64,000 nucleotides of DNA from Bolinopsis microptera (Eukaryota > Ctenophora > Tentaculata > Lobata > Bolinopsidae). Where the stretch lies: the NCBI RefSeq assembly GCF_026151205.1, contig NC_087076.1, positions 1,435,692 to 1,499,691 of the forward strand, read 5' to 3'. The notes under the pieces were generated by a model that was given only the letters and a program-made list of their open reading frames with translations, did not search any database and was not told the DNA's origin. Made by a program: the position numbers and the translations under genes. Shown here in pieces: positions 24,891 to 61,640 of the stretch (the first letter of the stretch is position 1; every line of letters starts with the position of its first letter).

Positions 24891-25680
24891 AGTCTATGCA
24901 ACGTCTATGCAACGTCCATGCAACAACAAAAGAACCGTCTATGCAACGTCTATGCAACGTCCCTGCACAATGAACACTCTATGCACACTCCCTGCACGGT
25001 CAGTCTATGCAACGTCTATGCAACGTCTATGCAACGTCTATGCAACGTCCCTGCACAGTACCATATGAACACCGGCTACTAGCCGGCTACTAGCCGGCTA
25101 GTAGCCACTTTTGTAATAACAGCTCCTCAACTTCACATTACCAACCGGCTACTAACCGGCACTTGAAAAGTGGTCACTAGCCGGCTACTAGCCGGCTACT
25201 AGCCGGCTAGTGACCACAAAGTGGCTACTAACCGGCTACTAAGCGGTCACTAGCCGGCTATTAGCCGAGCTAGTAGCCGGTTTAGAACCGGCTACTAATA
25301 GGTCTGCTTTAGAGCCGGCTAGTGACCGGTTAGTAGCCGGTTAGTAGCTACTTGGTGGTTACTAGCCGGTTAGTAGCCGGTTAGTAGCCGGCTAGTGACC
25401 GCTTTTCAAGTGCCGGTTAGTAGCCGGTTGTTAATGTGAAGTTGAGGAGCTGTTATTACAAAAGTGGCTACTAGCCGGCTAGTAGCCGGCTAGTAGCCGG
25501 TGTTCATATGGTACTGTGCAGGGACGTTGCATAGACGTTGCATAGACTGACCGTGCAGGGAGTGTGCATAGAGTGTTCATTGTGCAGGGACGTTGCATAG
25601 ACGTTGCATAGACGGTTCTTTTGTTGTTGCACGGACGTTGCATAGACGTTGCATAGACTGTCCGGAGCTAAACGACCAAC
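24868..25680. repeat. 813-bp palindrome built from tandem repeats
   Basis: The arms meet near 25,274. The outermost sequence TTGGTCGTTTAGCTCCGGAC at 24,870 is complemented at 25,660-25,680. Each arm then carries, in mirror order, CTATGCAACGT repeats, GTGCAGGGA/TCCCTGCAC words, ACCATATGAACACCGG, CCGGCTACTAG repeats, and a unique block starting TAATAACAGCTCCTCAACTT. The innermost portion is degenerate CCGGYTASTAG repeats. No coding potential is convincing. Confidence 0.92.
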
Positions 25681-26828
25681 TTCCCGTCCCAACTTTTTTA
25701 CTCACTACTCAACAAGAGAGCACAACATCCGTTAGTGCCAATCATCAAATCATGAGAACAGTAGCGAATGGCTAGATACGTACAATAACCGATGTTTCAA
25801 AGCATCCATTTTTTTAAAGGACCTTTACTAGCTCTAACAGACACCAACAAGAACATCACGTCCCTACCTAGCTTATTTTCAATAAATATTTACAAATCGA
25901 ACGCAAAACGCGTGCTTCTTGAGCAACAGTCAACACTAACTCAGAGGACAGCTGGCCAGCATTTCTGCTACACAACGTACCTGGTTTGAGGAAGTCCAAT
26001 AGATGAGGGATGATTGAGTAATACAGCGACCAATAATCGCTAAATCATGACATCATATCATAACATAACATAACATAGGACGACAGCAAACACACAATAA
26101 ACGAGCAGTAATAAACAACGTTCGCTTAATGGACTGACATATTTCAGCATATTTTTCACTGCCAAAGCGCTGATAACAGCAAGCCTTACCCCACTCCGCG
26201 TGGCTTTTTAATGCACAAAATCTTAAAGATAATTCTCGCGATAAAATTTTCATCGTCACGCTTGAAAATTTCTAGAAATTAGAATAGCCGTATATTATAA
26301 CAAACTATAGCAAGCAGAATTAAGAAATAAAAAGTTCTGGGACTTAAGTGGTACAAATAAAATGAAAGGCATGCTAATCATGCTCACGTACTGTAATGTG
26401 TCGAGAGTTTTTTTAAAATTTTTACTATTTGACAAAATAATTGAACTTTTTAGTGTGAGTGTGATTTCAACTTTGAGTTTGAAAATATTTTGAAACGACT
26501 TTCGATATTATTGATTATTATATTTAATAAACTGTCTCAAAGCCCTTAGAGGTGGCTCTATACGGGTCTTTACAACAACAACAATCAGGCCACACCACGT
26601 GGAGGATTTCGTGACCCTAAAAATGAACTTAGTCTCACTTGTTCAATGAGGCATTTGACTTAAGATCGCATGATTATTGGCATTTATCACAAACATTGCT
26701 ATGGATGGCTACTGCTGAAATAGTAAAATCTTGTTCTTATCATATAATAGGCTATTATATAATAGGCTATTATGTAAATGTTCGCTTATTATCATAATTA
26801 TCGTTAGAATATTATTTAGGTACTCAAG
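25681..26828. other. Intergenic DNA upstream of the IF1 pair
   Basis: No gene or clear repeat apart from a short repeated TATAATAGGCTAT at 26,743-26,772. It presumably contains the IF1 promoter and any 5' untranslated exon. A pyrimidine-poor AG at about 26,819 (TTTAGGTACTCAAG before the ATG) could be a splice acceptor. Confidence 0.5.
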
Positions 26829-35300: not shown

Positions 35301-38300
35301 ATCCCGGCTTGAGGTTATCGTATCTTGTTGTTTTGACCCCAGTGACATGGTATTTTGTAAAACATGATTGTTCAGCTCAGCTAGACAAGAAGCTTGCGGA
35401 GGAAGCAGAGAGCTACCACCAGATTATAGCAGATCTTCAGAGTCAGTTATCTGGTTACACAAACGCTCACATTCAGTAAGTTTCTTTATAATTTACACAA
35501 ACGCTCACATTCAGTAAGTTTCTTTATAATTTACACAAACGCTCACATTCAGTAAGTTTCTTTATAATTTACACAAACGCTCACATTCAGTAAGTTTCTT
35601 TATAATTTACACAAACGCTCACATTCAGTAAGTTTCTTTATAATTTACACAAACGCTCACATTCAGTAAGTTTCTTTATAATTTACACAAACGCTCACAT
35701 TCAGTAAGTTTCTTTATAATTTACACAAACGCTCACATTCAGTAAGTTTCTTTATAATTTACACAAACGCTCACATTCAGTAAGTTTCTTTATAATTTAC
35801 ACAAACGCTCACATTCAGTAAGTTTCTTTATAATTTACACAAACGCTCACATTCAGTAAGTTTCTTTATAATTTACACAAACGCTCACATTCAGTAAGTT
35901 TCTTTATAATTTACACAAACGCTCACATTCAGTAAGTTTCTTTATAATTTACACAAACGCTCACATTCAGTAAGTTTCTTTATAATTTACACAAACGCTC
36001 ACATTCAGCCCCAAGGCATCTGGTTGGTGATGGTTCCCAGGGCTTTTTCAGTTGGAGTCGGCTGTTAAGTTTGTCCTGTAAATTCTTGACTTAAGAAAGG
36101 AAATAAAATATATAACATCACATCCAACACTTGGATTCATCCCAACAGTATTATTTCCCCTGATATAACACCGTGTAATAAGTCAAGATGTCTCACCTGT
36201 AAACCATTCAGGTCAAGTAATATTTTCACCAGTTACGTTACTAATAATTCTTTCATGTTAACTCACTCTGAATCCTTTTCTTGTAAATCTTCTTCTATTA
36301 TCTATCTCCTCACTTGTTCTTGTGGTATTCAATATGTTGGGCTCACAGAACAGCGCCTTAATGAACGCATGAATGGACACCGTGCTTCGGTTAAAGCCGG
36401 CAAATCCTCCTTTGTCCATGACCACTTTAATACTCCCGGTCATAATTTTCATGACGCCTCCATTCAAATTATTGATTTTATTGACCCTTCCTCTACTGAA
36501 GACCCTCGTCTGGCCTTAGCTGACAGGGAACTTCTTTGGATTAATCTCCTGAGCACTGCTCACCCTCTAGGTCTCAATGACAACATAAAAGGTTCTGGTA
36601 ATATTTCTAAAAGCAACTTTAACGATATTTATTTTAAAAGTAAAATAAAAAGATATAAAAGAGGACATGGCAGAAAAAAGAAAAACAAAAGCCATGAAGA
36701 TAGAATATACAAAAGGACTCTCACTTTAAGAGAGATTGACAATAAATATGAAAGTTTAAAAAGAAAAATGTCTGAAAGCAAATACAGATTCTATAAAGAT
36801 ATAAGTAGCCTTCAAAAAGGCGAGCTCAAGCAACTTAGCTCTCATTCCCTCTGCAAATCTGGAGCCATTTTCCTTGTTATACAATCTTTTGCTGGCCAAG
36901 ACAGCACTTCTTCTCCTAATATCACCTCTGTTAATAGCGAGTTTATCACTTTTCACTATTGTTCTAAAATATTTGATAAACTCCGAATAGAATCAGTCAT
37001 TCGTGACTCTAGGATCTTGACTCTTCTCCCTCCAAACCTTACGCCTTTCCTTCCCTTAAAAGTTTACTATAAGTACGATATTCCTGTCGGGCGTAAGCTT
37101 TTTAATTATAATAGATTCCTTAAATCACTTGATAATACTACTATTTCCTCCATCCTGGAAGGTGATTGCTCCTGTTCCAGTAACCCTTATTGCTATCAGC
37201 CTCGAGGCCACATTATCACCGGTGACCTTGCTTTCATTGAGCACGAGGATTTAAGAGGCATCATGAGTTACGGTACCAAATTTAGGGAACCTGTGTCTGT
37301 TCCTCCTGAGCAAATCTTGGAGAGCCTCAACGAGTGTTCAGCCAACTTCGCCACCCGTATGGCTAGGAAACATGGACTTTCATGTTTGGAATTCCAGGAT
37401 TGGAAAGATGAGGTCTCCCGGATCTTCACCAATCGCCTTAACTTCCTCTCCTCCTCCCCTAATAACTTCACTCCCTACAATTCCATTCTACAAAGGGATG
37501 ATGTTAAATCTTATCTCGACAGTCTTTCTTCTTCTTTTATTATTTGCTCCGTAGATAAAGCTTCAAATAATTATGTTTTTGTCTGCAAGAAGTTTTATCT
37601 TTTAACCCTTCTCAACGAACTTGGCTACGATCTCACTTCTCTAGAGTGTCGTGGCAATTCTACTTATCATCCGGTTAACTCTGTAGAGGATGATATTATT
37701 CAGGAACATGTGAACTTCATTAAAGATAACTTTAATATTCGTGTTTCTGAGGACAACCTTTGTCTACCGAGAATCTTTTGGATTCCTAAACTTCACAAGA
37801 ATCCTTATAAGTCTAGATTTATAGCTGGGGCCAGTAAATGTACCACTAAGCAGATATCAGTTGTAGTCAACAAAGCTTTAAAAGTTTTAAAAGAATACTT
37901 TTCCAAATACTGCAACTCTATCTACAACAATACTGGAATTAACTGCGACTGGAGCATTAACAGCTCTAAACAGTTCCTGGAAAGGCTGCCTAGACTAGAG
38001 ATTTTTAATATGCAGGTATACGACTTTACCACTCTGTATACCAATCTAGACCTTCAGGTTGTACAGTCACTGCTTTTCGAGCTAATAGATCTCCTCTTTA
38101 GTAATACGAATAAATTTATTTGTGTTTCTCTGTATAAGAACAACAATTTTTTCTCTAAAAAGGAATATAACGGATACTTATGTTTTTCTGCTGATAAACT
38201 CAAAACAGCTATTACATTTATTCTGTTTAACACTTTTGTTTGTTTTGGGGATCAGATTTTAAGACAAACGAAAGGCATTCCCATGGGAGGGAATTCTAGT

Positions 38301-39751
38301 AGCCAGTTCGCTGATCTTTCGCTAGGGAAGTGTGAATTCAACTACATGACACGCCTAATCAAAGAAAAGAAGTTCGGTCTCGCTAAGCTCCTCTCAAGAA
38401 ACTGCAGATATGTCGACGACCTCAACACCATGAACTATTTGCATTTCTCTAACCTAATCAGGTCCATTTATCCACCTGACCTGCTTATGGAGAGGAGTGG
38501 TGACGACAATAAGTCCGTAAACTATCTCGACATCAACATCTCGATGAATAACTCCGGACACGTCGCCACCAAGCTTTACAACAAACTTGATGACTTCAAC
38601 TTTCCTGTGGTCATGTACACCTTTCCTAACAGTAATATTTCCTCTTCTGTTGGTTATAATGTTTTTTACGGTCAGGTCCTTCGTTACTCTTCCATTATCT
38701 CTGACCTTGATTCTTTTCTGTGTTCTACCAACACCCTTTATAGGACACTTCTTTCAAGATGTTATAATGACAGACTCCTGAAGAGTAAATTCAGAAAGCT
38801 TCTGAAAGACCGACCTAGTATTCTGTACAAATACAGTATACTTGATGTCAGCGACATCCTTGACATCACATTTAACGTGAACAGGTGATCACTGACGAGT
38901 GATTGCTAGGGGGTCTTGGCACATTAAACCGGTACAGGTATTAAACCCCCGAAACCGGTGTGCCAAGTCATCTGCTGATGATGTTCACATAACATTATTT
39001 CCTCTCTCCTTTATTCCTTCCGTCTTTTCTTAAACTTACAGTTCAGTTACTTTATTTCACCAGGTCTACCTAAGGATCAATTATTCTTTGGTGGGGTTTC
39101 ACTTCTGGTATTGGCTTCATTCCCGTTCCTTTTCCTTATTCTTTATACTTATTTTTTATATAGTTTAATGAGATTCAGTAAGTTTCTTTATAATTTACAC
39201 AAACGCTCACATTCAGTAAGTTTCTTTATAATTTACACAAACGCTCACATTCAGTAAGTTTCTTTATAATTTACACAAACGCTCACATTCAGTAAGTTTC
39301 TTTATAATTTACACAAACGCTCACATTCAGTAAGTTTCTTTATAATTTACACAAACGCTCACATTCAGTAAGTTTCTTTATAGTTTACACAAACGCTCAC
39401 ATTCAGTAAGTTTCTTTATAAGTTACACAAACGCTCACATTCAGTAAGTTTCTTTATAATTTACACAAACGCTCACATTCAGTAAGTTTCTTTATAATTT
39501 ACACAAACGCTCACATTCAGTAAGTTTCTTTATAATTTACACAAACGCTCACATTCAGTAAGTTTCTTTATAATTTCCAATCTGCTTGCTTTTAGTATCT
39601 TCCATATATTATTCCACGTTATTTTAAACCTACGAAAATTTCCAGGTTCGACAGACACGGTCTGGTTAAGTGTCCGTTTTGTCCTGCTGCGTACGAGAGA
39701 TCAATGCAGCAGCAAATGGAGCAGCATATCATTGCCAAGCACCCTTTCTAA
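29304..39751 (+). CDS. SKICH-domain autophagy receptor, CALCOCO/TAX1BP1 family (16 exons)
   Basis: Exons by GT-AG rule: 29304-29438, 29571-29667, 29777-30045, 30508-30671, 31749-31934, 32184-32250, 32542-32717, 32889-32955, 33354-33500, 33606-33787, 33899-33980, 34093-34230, 34797-34964, 35101-35254, 35376-35475, 39646-39751. They total 2,238 nt and join in frame to 745 codons plus TAA. Residues about 90-195 form a SKICH domain (RDWIGLFEVGWKYLHSYITF, VMVVKFNSRTLP, HVFCYVTRTGDVLGVSPPF). Residues about 225-710 are coiled coil. The C-terminus is a finger with spacing C-x2-C-x14-H-x4-H (CPFCPAAYERSM...). Family members link cargo or ubiquitin to the autophagy machinery. FQDI after the SKICH is a possible LC3-binding motif. 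The first 80 residues are additional to the family core. An upstream 5' untranslated exon is possible (AG just before 29,298). Confidence 0.9.
30667..30862. repeat. Splice-donor-seeded minisatellite, intron 4
   Basis: The array begins at the exon 4/intron 4 junction. Units of 19 bp (ATGCCGTAAGTTATTAAAC) and 11-bp half units (GTGCCGTAAAC type) repeat about ten times. Seven GTAAG words occur in it, the authentic donor being the first (30672). Read-through from exon 4 meets TAA in the first donor copy (CCG TAA). Confidence 0.9.
35454..36008. repeat. 38-bp splice-donor minisatellite, intron 15, left block
   Basis: The unit runs from one donor to the next, beginning GTAAGTTTCTTTATAATTTA and ending ACGCTCACATTCA, with 14 essentially identical copies from 35476 to 36007. 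Each carries the last bases of exon 15 plus a GTAAGT donor. The array stops exactly where the Penelope-like element begins (ATTCAG then CCCCAAGG). Confidence 0.97.
36009..39172 (+). mobile_element. Penelope-like element with N-terminal GIY-YIG (Naiad-like)
   Basis: A 3.16-kb insertion splits the 38-bp array. ATTCAG occurs at both edges (36003-36008 and 39173-39178) and may be the target duplication. It encodes one large ORF. Downstream of the ORF, 38,885-38,970 is strongly structured: ATCACT/AGTGAT, CTTGGCAC/GTGCCAAG and ACCGGT/ACCGGT pairings. The permuted domain order (nuclease before reverse transcriptase) matches the Naiad/Chlamys group of Penelope-like elements. It lies in the sense orientation inside the host intron. 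Confidence 0.85.
36255..38888 (+). CDS. Penelope-like reverse transcriptase with N-terminal GIY-YIG nuclease
   Basis: The 877-residue frame is intact. GIY-YIG occupies residues about 14-112: IIYLLTCSCGIQYVGL, then R34 in LNERMNGH, E92 in RELLWI and N108/N110. Reverse transcriptase motifs follow: KASNNYVFVCKKFYL near 433, FWIPKLHKNP near 507, YDFTTLYTNLDL near 588 (motif A), GIPMGGNSSSQF near 674 (motif B), RYVDDLN near 717 (motif C, VDD) and VNYLDINIS near 755. The open frame extends upstream without an ATG to the TGA at 36087-36089 and includes PCNKSRCLTCKPF, a Cys cluster like that preceding GIY-YIG in relatives. The real start may therefore be upstream, non-ATG or lost. Confidence 0.93.
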   Translation: MLTHSESFSCKSSSIIYLLTCSCGIQYVGLTEQRLNERMNGHRASVKAGKSSFVHDHFNTPGHNFHDASIQIIDFIDPSSTEDPRLALADRELLWINLLSTAHPLGLNDNIKGSGNISKSNFNDIYFKSKIKRYKRGHGRKKKNKSHEDRIYKRTLTLREIDNKYESLKRKMSESKYRFYKDISSLQKGELKQLSSHSLCKSGAIFLVIQSFAGQDSTSSPNITSVNSEFITFHYCSKIFDKLRIESVIRDSRILTLLPPNLTPFLPLKVYYKYDIPVGRKLFNYNRFLKSLDNTTISSILEGDCSCSSNPYCYQPRGHIITGDLAFIEHEDLRGIMSYGTKFREPVSVPPEQILESLNECSANFATRMARKHGLSCLEFQDWKDEVSRIFTNRLNFLSSSPNNFTPYNSILQRDDVKSYLDSLSSSFIICSVDKASNNYVFVCKKFYLLTLLNELGYDLTSLECRGNSTYHPVNSVEDDIIQEHVNFIKDNFNIRVSEDNLCLPRIFWIPKLHKNPYKSRFIAGASKCTTKQISVVVNKALKVLKEYFSKYCNSIYNNTGINCDWSINSSKQFLERLPRLEIFNMQVYDFTTLYTNLDLQVVQSLLFELIDLLFSNTNKFICVSLYKNNNFFSKKEYNGYLCFSADKLKTAITFILFNTFVCFGDQILRQTKGIPMGGNSSSQFADLSLGKCEFNYMTRLIKEKKFGLAKLLSRNCRYVDDLNTMNYLHFSNLIRSIYPPDLLMERSGDDNKSVNYLDINISMNNSGHVATKLYNKLDDFNFPVVMYTFPNSNISSSVGYNVFYGQVLRYSSIISDLDSFLCSTNTLYRTLLSRCYNDRLLKSKFRKLLKDRPSILYKYSILDVSDILDITFNVNR
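39173..39577. repeat. 38-bp splice-donor minisatellite, intron 15, right block
   Basis: Eleven donor copies (39178 to 39558, every 38 bp) continue the left block after the Penelope-like insertion. Two units carry single substitutions (TTTATAGTTTAC, TTTATAAGTTAC). The last unit is cut off at GTAAGTTTCTTTATAATTTCC, shortly before the exon 16 acceptor at 39,645. Confidence 0.95.
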
Positions 39752-56300: not shown

Positions 56301-56829
56301 TCATAAATAGAATAATGAATTGTAGCGCTATTTTTATCGATCATGAAACATTTACAAAATTATCAAAATTTACAAAATTTCCAAAAAATCTTTCAAAAAA
56401 AACACAGTTTATTGTGTCCGCCCAGACCAGAATCAACAATTAACTCTCAAATTGAAATACGGATCCTAATTCTACCAGCATCACGGAACTCAGTAAAGAA
56501 TTTTCCTCTACCACTACACTCGAAGGCCAACGCAGTTTACAACTTTAAAAGCCAAAGATATCTTACTACCTTACTTCATAGACAATTTTAAAATTTGGAC
56601 GGACACAATAAACTGTGTTTTTTTGGAAGATTTTTTGGAAATTTTGAACATGTCATAGCGCTACAATTCATTATTCTATTTGGCACTGATGATTGGTATT
56701 GTTTTTTATACATATCATGAAACGGATCGTTTGCCCGCCAATTTGATTTGTATCAATTGTTCGAATCGTAATGCTCCTGCTTAACTGCAGTCGAGCACTC
56801 TCTTTGGGAAACCAAACAACAACTATTTA

Positions 56830-56867
<38 letters not shown>

Positions 56868-57248: not shown

Positions 57249-59681
57249 ATGTTCCAGTTCATTCTGCTTGGAGCTGTCCTGATAAGTGCAAGTTTTGCCG
57301 AATCGCCCACGACCAGTACAAGTTCCTCCTCCAGCTCGCCCCCAGCGAAAGAAAAAGTTGAAATAACCTTTTGTCGACACGAAAATAAGAAGATCGAAAT
57401 CGGAGCAAAGGTCTACAAGGGATGCGAGGAATGCACATGCACGACCAAGCCCTATATCAGCTTCATGGGACCCGCGGATCAAGGTAAACATTATGTAGTT
57501 AATTTTATGTTAATGAATTATATATATATATTTTACCAAAACCCATAATCATGGGTAGAGTGGACCGCTGCCAGTGTCTCTCTTTCCCAAACAAAAGGAA
57601 ATGATATTAATTTAATTGACCGTTCTCAAATGCAAAATGATACCGAGAATGAAATCGGTCGCTCGCTTTTCCCATTCATTCACGGCTTACGAATTGTAAT
57701 AAGTTTCGATTGATTACATCAATCAGATGCTGTAAAAATCTCTTTGGGTTGCGTTCGGGTCGATACCTAGTATTTCGGGGTAAGGGTGGTAGTTATTACT
57801 TATTGAATTAGCTGAAGTTTATTGAATCTTTATTGCCGAGTACAGCTGCCTTTGGGTAGTTCTTCTTAATCTGTTACAATTGTAAATGAATGGGAAAAGC
57901 GAGCGACCGATTTCATTCTCGGTATCATTTTGCATTTGAGAACGGTCAATTAAATTAATATCATTTCCTTTTGTTTGGGAAAGAGAGACACTGGCAGCGG
58001 TCCACTCTACCCATGATTATGGGTTTTGGTAAAATATCATCTCTTTTTGATTATAATGTCAGGGTACTTTATAAAGTCGAAATATAAACTGATATCTTCA
58101 TTAATAAGGAGGAAGTTTCAACGATTTCGAAATTTGTCCTTTAAAAACATTTCCTTGTGTTTAGGTAAGCATATCGGTCGATCACTGACTGAATATGCCA
58201 CTTAATACTCATTCAAGTTGGCATTAAATTCATATATAATGACATTAAACTGTCGTGGCAAAGCAGAATTTGTTGGAAATTACGAATGAGCAAAATTCTT
58301 ACCTTTCGCACGTGCAAACTTTGAGCGGACGTTGCGTGCGCATCCAATATTGAATCGCCCTAAATTTTTGCATGTAATTGTTTTATATATAGTTTAATAA
58401 GCATGCAAAGTTTCAAAGTATTTCAAGAAGAACTGTAATCACAACGGCACTCTAAAGTTGACAGAAAATGACGAAAACAGCAATTTTCAGTGATTTTAGC
58501 AATTTTCTATCAATTTGGGCGTGTCCCCACGTGTGCAACTTTTCGATTTTAAACTTTAAAACTAGCCTAATGCACAATTTATACCTATAAGAAGCAGAAC
58601 TGAGCTCCACAACCCAAGGCATGGCCCAACACCAGAGAATACTAAATCGCAAAATTGACGTTTTTATAAAATAATTCTTCAAAAAAGCACAAACTTCAAT
58701 GACGAATATCTTTATGAAGGAGCAAGCTAGAAAAACTTTCCGGTAGATTTTCAGAATGCTTGAACAATTATCTAAGGTGAAAATTTCCTCAGATTTTGAA
58801 TACAATACTTTTTAATGGTGTAAAATCATTTTTTAAAGTTATTACTTTGTCAAAAATCAAGTTTTAAAAACGGTTAACTTGATGACGTCATCAAGGGGTG
58901 TTCATGACGTCAAATAATTTGTTTATACAATGTAAACTAAAGTGTAAACAATTATTTTCAAGACCTGTGGTCGGAAATGGCTGTATCTTTTATACTTTTG
59001 AATCTATGGACAATTAAATACAGGCTACAATTGACTGGCAAAGCGTCTATCCCTGAATATATATGTATGTATATCTGTATGTATCACGACAATCTATCGT
59101 AAAACAGGGGTTCTAGAAAACCCATTTCCCGATAATCCTGAAACCTGAAACTTTTTTTGCAGTCGATTTGGTCAATGTCTAGACGCCCTGAAAAATTTCA
59201 GATCTCTAACTCAATTTTAGCATGGTTTTTAAGGCACCTGAATATGGCGATTTTGGGTTTTTTACCGAATTTCGTATAACAGTGCTGGCGAGTATTTTAT
59301 GCAAATTTCTTAAAAATCTCAACATAACTATTTTTTATTCCTGTCATCTTTGACATCAAATTAGAATGTTTTGAACTAAAAATAAATCTGCTGAACGACT
59401 TCCGATGAGTCTTAATGCCTGAAAAACTCCTGCCGGAGGCGGCGGCCTTCGGCCGCCGCCTCCGGCCGGAGTGCACGCTTCGCGTGCACGAAAGAGGCTT
59501 GTAATGTGTACCAAAGGGGGTATAATAGTAAAGGGGGTATAATAGTAAAGGGGGTATAATAGTAAATTGGGTACATAGTATACCCACAATAAATGCAACG
59601 GTCGTGCTTGCCAGCACTGTGATAATGCTCCTGCTTGGCTGCAGTCGAGCGCTCTCTTTGGGAGGCCGGGCAACAACTATT

Positions 59682-59716
<35 letters not shown>

Positions 59717-60841
59717 ATGAATGGTTGTTGTTTGGTTTCCCGGGGGGAGTGCTCGACTGCAGTTGAGCGGGAGCATTGTGATTCGAGCAATTGGGACGGG
59801 TCGGGTTGGCGGGCGGGCGATCCGTTTCATGATATGTATGGGGACGATACCATTACCGGTCATCGGTGCCAAATGGAGTGGTGAATTGTGGCGCTGTAAC
59901 ATGTTGCTCCTTTGTAAGATGGTTTTTGTCGGTCATGGGGCATTTTCGGGGTTATCAAAATTTACAAAATTTCCAAAAAAACGTTTGATAACCAGAATCA
60001 ACAATTAACTCTCAAATACGGATCCTAATTCTACCAGCATCACGGAACTCAGTAAAGAATTTTCCTCTACCACTACACGAAGGCCAACGCAGTTTACAAC
60101 TTTAAAAGCCAAAGATATCTTACTACCTTACGCTCATAGACAATTTTAAAATTTGGACGGACACAATAAACTGTTTTTTTGGAAATTTTGTAAATTTTGA
60201 TAATTTTGAAAATGTTTCATGATCGATAAAAATTATCTTATAAAGGAGCAACATGTCATAGCGCTACAATTCATTATTCTATTTGGCACTGATGATTGGT
60301 ATTGTTTTTATACATATCATGAAACGGATCGTTTGCCCGCCAATTTGATTTGTTTCAATTGTTCGAATTATATATATATATGTATATAATTATATATATT
60401 AGCTCTGGGCGGGCCACCCTCTGTATAATTTGTCGGTCTTAGTTTCAACATATTCATTATCTTTTTTTTTAAATTTGACAAGTTCTAATTTTCCTCAGGA
60501 CAAGTGGTATGCAGCGAGGGTACTTTCTGTTGTCTGTTCATTGACAACGAAGGTAAAACTCAGCGAGCTTACACCGGTGACAAATACAGTGATGGTTGTA
60601 ACACATGTACATGTAAAAAGGACATGAGTGTTGAAGATTGCACTCAGCAATGGTGTAAGAACATGTGTCCGTATTATACTGTGGATAATATCGTGAATCA
60701 TACCAAACTGGAAAAGTTATTGCGATTGACGACGCAGTCGGCAAAAAGAAATGTCCCAGAAAGTGCAAATGCACGCGATCAGGAAGAATTAAGTGCACAG
60801 GACGCTGCATTAACGAGAGTCCCATGGGCATTTTTGGTTAG
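57249..60841 (+). CDS. Secreted VWC-like cysteine-rich protein, copy 1 (two exons, frameshift near the end)
   Basis: Exon 1 (57249-57483) encodes a signal peptide (MFQFILLGAVLISASFA), a Ser/Thr-rich linker and FCRHENKKIEIGAKVYKGCE then CTC. Exon 2 starts at 60499 and joins in phase: QVVCSEGTFCC, then YTGDKYSDGCNTCTCKKD. The pattern G-x2-Y-x2-GC-x2-CTC with later C-x4-C pairs fits von Willebrand factor C or pacifastin-type small disulfide domains. Near 60,715 the frame shifts. The third Cys cluster (KCPRKCKCTRSGRIKCTGRC) lies in another frame, with its stop at 60839-60841, and copy 2 has an extra G there. The intron holds a 2.8-kb insertion. Confidence 0.7.
57535..58030. mobile_element. Long-TIR MITE, copy 2, in the VWC-like gene intron
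   Basis: Same element as 46803-47291, with arms of about 145 bp beginning ACCAAAACCCATAATCATGG. Its arms share diagnostic bases that differ from both arms of copy 1. It adjoins the inverted composite insertion. Confidence 0.88.
58031..59634 (-). mobile_element. Composite insertion, inverted copy
   Basis: This is the reverse complement of 44,328-46,800 without the TA-flanked element. It includes the GC double hairpin (59,432-59,484) and the repeated TATAATAGTAAAGGGGG units (59,518-59,566). It ends with CTTGCCAGCACTGTGATAAT next to the A-to-G changed segment. The frames inside are mirrored in the other copy and show no protein motif. Confidence 0.85.
59630..59955 (+). repeat. A-to-G changed inverted repeat
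   Basis: Arm 1 (59,630-59,690), a (TA)n loop (59,685-59,713) and arm 2 (59,714-59,955) are copies of repeat segments also present at 55.6, 56.7, 60.2-60.4 and 61.2-61.35 kb. Relative to those copies, arm 1 has 8 and arm 2 about 47 A-to-G changes on the plus strand. Only one G-to-A, one C-to-T and one small duplication were seen in my hand alignment. Change stops abruptly near 59,955, where A-rich sequence is intact. Confidence 0.85.
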
Positions 60842-61640
60842 GTTAATAATTTTAAGGCGGGCGAATTAGTAATAGCCCTGTGTTAAAGTTTAAACAAAAA
60901 TGGAAATACAGATCCTAATTCTACCAGCATCATCACGAACTCAGTAAAGAATTTTCCTCTACCACTAACACTCGAAGGCCATCGCAGTTTACAACTTTAA
61001 AAAGCCAAAGAGAATCTTACTAACCTTACTTCATAAGACAATTTTTAAAATTTGGACGACACAATAAACTGTGTTTTTTTTTGGAAGATTTTGGAAATTT
61101 TGAAATGTTTCATAATTATGAAACTTTTTTTTTTTTTTTGTTTTTAATCGATAAAATTATTTTATAAAGGAGCAACATGTCATAGCGCTATAACTATCAT
61201 TATTCTATTTGGCACTGAGGTGGTATTTTTTTTATACAATCATAAACGGAAATCGTTTGCCCGCCAATTTGAGTTGTATCAATTGTTTCGAATCATAATG
61301 CTCCTGCTTAACTGCAGTCGAGCACTCTCTTTGGAAACCAAACAGCAACTATTTCATTACTATATATATATATAGTATTCGTTGTCTGTACTCCTACACA
61401 GTAAAAGTCGGTATATATATAATAGTACCCGAGTAATTCCTTCTATTCCAAAATTAGTTGCCATGAAATCATTTGGAGAAATGGTTATTAATATTGGTCC
61501 TTAATTCGTAAAAAGTCAAGTTTACAGTAGGATCAATATTCAATATTTATTGAATAAATTGTATAACTTTTTAATATCTTATCATTACAGTTTACCAAAG
61601 GTATTCATAATAACAATATATTTCCAAGCATACAAGTGTT
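60842..61640. other. Start of the noisy duplicate block
   Basis: From about 60,895 the sequence repeats 56,440-57,248 (for example GATCCTAATTCTACCAGCAT and CTGCAGTCGAGCACTCTC) with frequent one-base insertions and deletions. It includes a T-run at 61,127-61,139. Confidence 0.7.

Follow-up and report, generated by a model that had tools for sequence, protein, structure and literature searches.

How can about half of the adenosines on one DNA strand turn into G over some 330 bases, in one copy of a repeat and with hardly any other change? This question is raised by a locus of the ctenophore Bolinopsis microptera which lies in a stretch of 64,000 nucleotides on contig NC_087076.1 (positions 1,435,692 to 1,499,691, forward strand). 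We call this whole stretch the window and give all coordinates in its numbering. The locus is a member of a repeat with a unit length of about 488 bp. An earlier note, made from the letters of the sequence alone, saw in it the possible fossil of a hairpin RNA edited by an ADAR. We propose that the tract 59,637-59,951 is a DNA copy of an RNA hyper-edited by an ADAR, about 330 nt of which were copied, and give this reading a probability of roughly two thirds.

From left to right the locus consists of a short sense fragment of the repeat unit (arm 1, 59,622-59,686, plus strand), a (TA)n tract (59,687-59,713), an antisense segment (59,714-59,986) and a sense block (59,987-60,369). Between 59,622 and 59,951, 57 of the 58 substitutions are A-to-G changes on the plus strand, and neither T-to-C nor C-to-T changes occur in the tract. 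These counts exclude one 6-nt insertion and the (TA)n tract, which was omitted because it has no fixed alignment; two further mismatches of arm 1 at the start of the (TA)n tract were excluded as well. All eight substitutions of arm 1 are A-to-G. Arm 2, the part of the antisense segment up to 59,951 (59,714-59,951, minus strand; counted from 59,715), carries 49 plus-strand A-to-G changes and one G-to-A. The near-pure signal described earlier, with 8 changes in arm 1 and about 47 in arm 2, was thus found again and is stronger than first described. The arm 2 count depends on the placement by eye of the 6-nt insertion ATTACC (59,852-59,857); the aligner's own gap placement gives 45 A-to-G, three A-to-T/C, one G-to-A and six insertion columns in arm 2, and 53 A-to-G among 57 substitutions in both arms. 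Outside the (TA)n tract 57 of 108 adenosines are changed, compared with a single change (the G-to-A) among 189 non-A positions.

The direction of change can be read from the other copies. At 49 of the 57 sites we tabulated the base in the window and in 20 fetched loci, which together supplied 68-82 aligned pieces. At most of these sites A is present in all other copies or in all but one or two; support is lowest at two sites beside the insertion (60 of 75) and at 59,780 (64 of 69, with four pieces carrying G). Therefore G is the derived base, as the earlier note had argued, and an ancestral G, for which we looked, is ruled out at the tabulated sites. Compared with each other the two arms differ by eight A-to-G and eight C-to-T changes. 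The duplex must therefore have been perfect at first, and each arm changed independently. That arm 2 arose from arm 1 by snap-back copying is ruled out, since arm 2 holds no mirror of the eight changes of arm 1.

The tract is sharply bounded on its right side. This end lies inside the antisense block, within one predicted duplex, and the first 17 adenosines beyond it, in the remainder of the antisense segment (59,952-59,986, minus strand), are unchanged, in agreement with the boundary claimed before. The sense block that follows on the plus strand is about 98% identical to other copies. No A-to-G change is seen when 59,986-60,395 is aligned with another copy, and 65 adenosines are unchanged in 60,160-60,369, the stretch which holds the predicted pairing partner of arm 2. 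The left end can be placed no closer than the end of arm 1, where the locus adjoins an unedited high-copy repeat, called HC here (57,528-59,622), whose right end coincides exactly with the left end of arm 1. Over 1,009 columns the HC flank 58,600-59,622 departs from the majority of 13 pieces, two of them from one locus, in 8 places, and a single one of these differences is A-to-G.

Within the copies compared, the skew is confined to this tract. We searched the genome (264.65 Mb in 232 contigs, the window lying on contig C5) and fetched 32 other loci of the repeat for comparison, first 20 and then 12 from 20 regions. Of 130 family alignments of at least 100 nt, this tract alone shows a skew; those inspected were the 45 with the lowest identity, all others being more than 97% identical. 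Without the tract and the duplicate locus L025, the transitions within the family are balanced (A-to-G 63, T-to-C 62, C-to-T 68, G-to-A 64), and the tract stays nearly pure A-to-G with more copies aligned. In the fetched DNA, runs of at least seven consecutive transition mismatches of the same type occur in 367 of 12,287 alignments, every one of which involves this tract. The strand-skewed wobble pattern is also strongest at this locus among 155 inverted pairs. Weaker skewed pairs among these are HC-type palindromes in L026, L027, L031 and L062-L064 and the stretch 56,368-56,651.

The distribution of the changes resembles that expected from an ADAR. The changes lie on the plus strand, as the earlier note had seen, in one continuous tract, and are scarce at adenosines that follow a G. 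Both arms are changed at similar rates: in the predicted stems 8 of 14 and 7 of 13 adenosines are changed in the first hairpin and 40 of 68 in the third stem, overall 55 of 95 when the hairpin tip is left out. Sorted by 5′ neighbour, again without the tip, 12 of 18 adenosines are changed after T, 28 of 41 after A, 11 of 21 after C and 4 of 15 after G. The depletion after G has a descriptive Fisher p of 0.010 without the tip; with the tip the count is 4 of 15 as well and p = 0.028. This order matches the 5′ neighbour preference of ADARs given in PMC8586724, namely U and A over C over G. Sorted by 3′ neighbour, 30 of 41 are changed before A, 7 of 12 before C, 6 of 12 before G and 12 of 30 before T, the last being low (p = 0.025, likewise descriptive). 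The AU-rich hairpin tip (59,672-59,723) is nearly spared, with 2 of 13 adenosines changed versus 55 of 95 elsewhere (descriptive p = 0.006). In the (TA)n tract, the tip of the first predicted hairpin, none of 13 adenosines is changed.

Folding of the plus-strand RNA 59,600-60,400 with the changed bases reset to A shows that a suitable double-stranded substrate would be available. Two adjoining, near-perfect hairpins are predicted (59,622-59,779 and 59,780-60,369, the first ending in a (UA)n tip; -457 kcal/mol), and 55 of the 57 changed adenosines are paired in this fold. The two inverted segments under the changed tract are complementary as plus-strand RNA. The earlier note had pictured an edited hairpin formed by the two arms, and the substitution pattern fits such a hairpin; most of arm 2, however, is predicted to pair not with arm 1 but with the sense block from 60,174 onward (60,174-60,369). 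Both strands of the first hairpin are changed, and the 3′ arm of the second is unchanged. Since this pairing partner kept its adenosines, only part of the edited RNA can have been copied.

The tract could have arisen as follows. A plus-strand RNA of the locus, or of an identical copy, would fold into the two adjoining hairpins predicted above. To judge from the substitutions, an ADAR would then deaminate rather more than half of the stem adenosines in both arms, avoiding those that follow a G and those of the AU-rich tip. Reverse transcription of the edited RNA may finally have started from a DNA 3′ end near 59,952, provided by a nick, a break or an insertion site. Copying would run leftward to arm 1, inosine would be read as G and the copy would be sealed in. 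The sequence to the right of the primer, including the pairing partner, would therefore have kept its adenosines. ADAR editing is well supported by the sequence, in which the state of the DNA, the direction and strand of change, the neighbour bias and the tract ends are directly observed; the copying step from RNA to DNA we infer from the DNA state and the boundary. The proposal of the earlier note that an edited RNA was reverse-transcribed and integrated agrees with the pattern, with the restriction that only a part would have been copied.

In a variant of this scheme, which we hold to be less likely than not, the edited hairpin RNA would come from the locus itself: extension of a broken or nicked end near 59,952 on this transcript would have overwritten the locus, so that what an enzyme had altered in RNA passed into chromosomal DNA. 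The C at 60,237 is private to this locus (1 of 74 copies) and lies opposite A59,918, which is the only changed adenosine in its AAAA run. ADARs prefer an A opposite C, and the C at 60,237 would fit this preference in the duplex formed by this locus itself. An exchange between the arms would, though, lead to the same base.

Several points speak against a copied, ADAR-edited RNA. ADARs prefer a G on the 3′ side, and this preference is absent in the tract, where only half of the adenosines before G are changed (6 of 12). The neighbour and tip tests rest on about 100 adenosines and the limits of the tip were chosen after inspection of the data; the p-values are therefore descriptive. Nearly all adenosines of the tract are paired in the predicted fold, so that pairing fails to separate changed from unchanged ones. 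The unchanged partner 60,174-60,369 demands partial copying as an extra assumption. No retro-insertion tail or target-site duplication was seen by eye around the tract; the ends lie at (TA)n and at the HC repeat. The case is also a single one, as no second edited copy turned up among the best 40 candidates of each converted query. The unit with every A turned into G found the window tract as its top match (80%) and otherwise ordinary copies (best 40 of 58 first-look candidates scored). The converted unit in the opposite orientation gave only ordinary copies among the best 40 of 84 candidates, and the converted HC palindrome gave no long match above 73% among the best 40 of 709.

The unchanged partner would need no partial copying if an ADAR had deaminated deoxyadenosines directly in the plus DNA strand, within an RNA:DNA hybrid such as an R-loop or a cDNA:RNA duplex arising in the course of an insertion. 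At breaks, ADAR2 is described to act on RNA:DNA hybrids; DNA-strand editing is discussed in that work, whose authors favour editing of the RNA part of the hybrid (PMC8448848). Direct editing of DNA would account for the continuous one-strand tract, its sharp ends and the 5′ neighbour bias. Arms 1 and 2, however, represent opposite strands of the unit, so that the hybrid needs one RNA spanning both, and in a hybrid one would not expect the hairpin tip and the (TA)n tract to be spared. We regard this route as unlikely and rank it below the copying of an edited RNA.

A-to-G changes on a newly synthesised strand, in a continuous tract and in both arms, would also be obtained if a low-fidelity DNA polymerase of the iota or eta type had made about 330 nt of the plus strand. 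Polymerases of this type insert G opposite template T. They make short patches, however, and the only other error in the tract is the one G-to-A among the 189 non-A positions outside (TA)n. Neither the order of the 5′ neighbours nor the sparing of the tip is predicted, and error-prone synthesis by snap-back is excluded by the missing mirror of the arm 1 changes in arm 2. An error-prone polymerase thus appears improbable to us.

An error of sequencing or assembly is quite improbable, too. One platform is known to miscall AA as GG in some repeats, but here the same sequence context is read as A in other copies, and the boundary of the tract lies inside one element, with a flank that differs normally. 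Gene conversion, which would likewise leave sharp ends, or descent of a diverged G-rich repeat subfamily is very improbable, as no donor was found among 144 matches nor among the matches listed of a further 166, the A-to-G converted queries retrieved only the window tract and ordinary copies among their best 40 candidates each, and an old divergence would bring mixed substitutions.

Enzymes for the proposed editing and copying of an RNA can be named as candidates. The ADAR deaminase domain has 13 matches in the genome, six of them nearly full length; the set of ADAR deaminase genes is enlarged, with matches on contigs C1, C4, C6 and C8. Two ADAR-type proteins were checked and carry two and one double-stranded RNA binding domains, respectively, each together with a full deaminase domain. 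Elsewhere in the genome, an ionotropic glutamate receptor has its best match in kainate receptors. In the window an open reading frame of 1,014 amino acids carries the reverse transcriptase domain RVT_1. Another one of 877 amino acids (36,255-38,888) shows by eye an N-terminal GIY-YIG-like stretch followed by reverse-transcriptase-like motifs, and gave no Pfam match at E 0.001. We take this order of domains to resemble Penelope-like elements with permuted domains. Open reading frames of reverse transcriptase type in the window make copying enzymes plausible; none of them is linked to the tract. The earlier note had considered an active long interspersed nuclear element (LINE) or Penelope enzyme as a source; the repeat itself consists of tandem units in inverted order, set in (TA)n tracts, and nothing marks it as a LINE or Penelope element or as moved by one.

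Hyper-editing by ADAR of double-stranded RNA from young inverted repeats is described as a general phenomenon in animals (PMC9989829). The clustered A-to-I changes in such RNA are similar to what we propose for the locus, but there they are described in RNA only and here they are found in the genomic sequence. Closer in this respect are retroviral proviruses, in which A-to-G clusters are fixed in DNA after reverse transcription of edited RNA. ADAR-type clusters of at least 7 changes in about 70 bp are reported for proviruses of bovine leukaemia virus (PMC8025556), and others for Rous-associated virus 1 (RAV-1), avian leucosis virus and the human and simian T-cell leukaemia viruses HTLV-2 and STLV-3 (PMC8586724). 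These are infectious or cell-culture viruses with their own reverse transcriptase, whereas the window tract is a noncoding repeat in a genome assembly and holds 57 changes in about 330 bp. In the reverse-transcriptase model of antibody gene hypermutation an ADAR-edited RNA is copied into chromosomal DNA from a nick (PMC5704389). That model is a proposal for immunoglobulin genes and mixed substitutions; here we see a nearly pure tract in an unrelated repeat. Deaminase signatures in genomic repeat copies are also left by APOBEC editing of retrotransposons (PMC2873906). They consist of G-to-A changes by cytidine deamination of cDNA and not of A-to-G changes; the A-to-G signal in this survey of genomic traces is reported in RNA traces.

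The transfer of edited RNA into chromosomal DNA thus has precedents in a proposal on antibody genes and in reports on retroviral proviruses. Our searches of the open-licence literature listed neither an ADAR tract in any genomic repeat nor a clean example from a chromosomal repeat in an animal. As the tract is dense, almost free of other changes and accompanied by many unedited sister copies, the route becomes testable. The tract further suggests a simple genome-wide screen for single repeat copies with pure A-to-G tracts inside inverted repeats.

Two unedited copies of the unit lie close to the locus on the plus strand, one at 56,426-56,837, which had served the earlier note as a reference, and an older and more diverged one at 60,904-61,359. 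In 24 of the 32 fetched loci an antisense block is directly followed by a sense block; the remaining 8 hold a single orientation in the fetched piece. When blocks below 25 nt are ignored, the order sense then antisense is found only in the diverged locus L040 and in the window; a sense piece of 16 nt, below this cut-off, stands in the same order in L003. The blocks of the arrays end mostly at two AT-rich points of the unit which adjoin (TA)n tracts, and an extra flanking motif is present in some loci only. The central junction of the inverted arrays in L003-L022 and L039-L050 differs between loci. These arrays may stem from a foldback-type transposon or from a circular template primed on two sides. 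Mobile elements of the foldback or inverted-array kind exist as a class. The repeat shares with them the long inverted repeats of tandem units, arranged in two inverted blocks (the 24 of 32 loci with antisense then sense order); it differs in that its ends lie in (TA)n, with no fixed terminal repeat or target duplication established.

The unit was also considered as a retrozyme, since a CTGATGA...GAAA string resembled a hammerhead ribozyme. Rfam scans of the window stretch and of five array loci gave no hammerhead match up to E = 1, and the candidate was rejected. Matches to microRNA precursors in these scans score below the gathering thresholds, and we take them as reflecting the palindrome.

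The HC repeat measures about 2.1 kb; a 156-bp palindrome forms its left end, and close to its right end a 17-bp sequence stands three times in tandem. HC may be a 5′-truncated retroelement whose enzyme jumped from the edited RNA: the 8 copies compared share a common right end (59,622-59,632 in window numbering), and their left ends vary. The similar numbers of first-look candidates in the genome for the inner part (1,631) and the right part (1,803) argue against such a truncation.

Further palindromes were considered as edited copies and rejected. Stretch 1-919 of locus L019 has many mixed mismatches, and pieces of it match the unit at 100%. At 25,315-25,500 of the window the strand skew is common to the members of its family; in the surrounding stretch 25,000-25,700, minisatellite-like units of the CCGGCTACTAG type form a dense inverted array, of which the genome holds many copies. 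The same holds for a second palindrome of L019 as a single-copy edited tract, the strand skew again being common to its family members. This palindrome (L019, 2500-2700) shows strongly one-sided wobble mismatches and recurs in every one of the 40 copies scored, at 94-100% identity. It may be a hairpin that was edited long ago and has since spread, or selection may maintain the structure.
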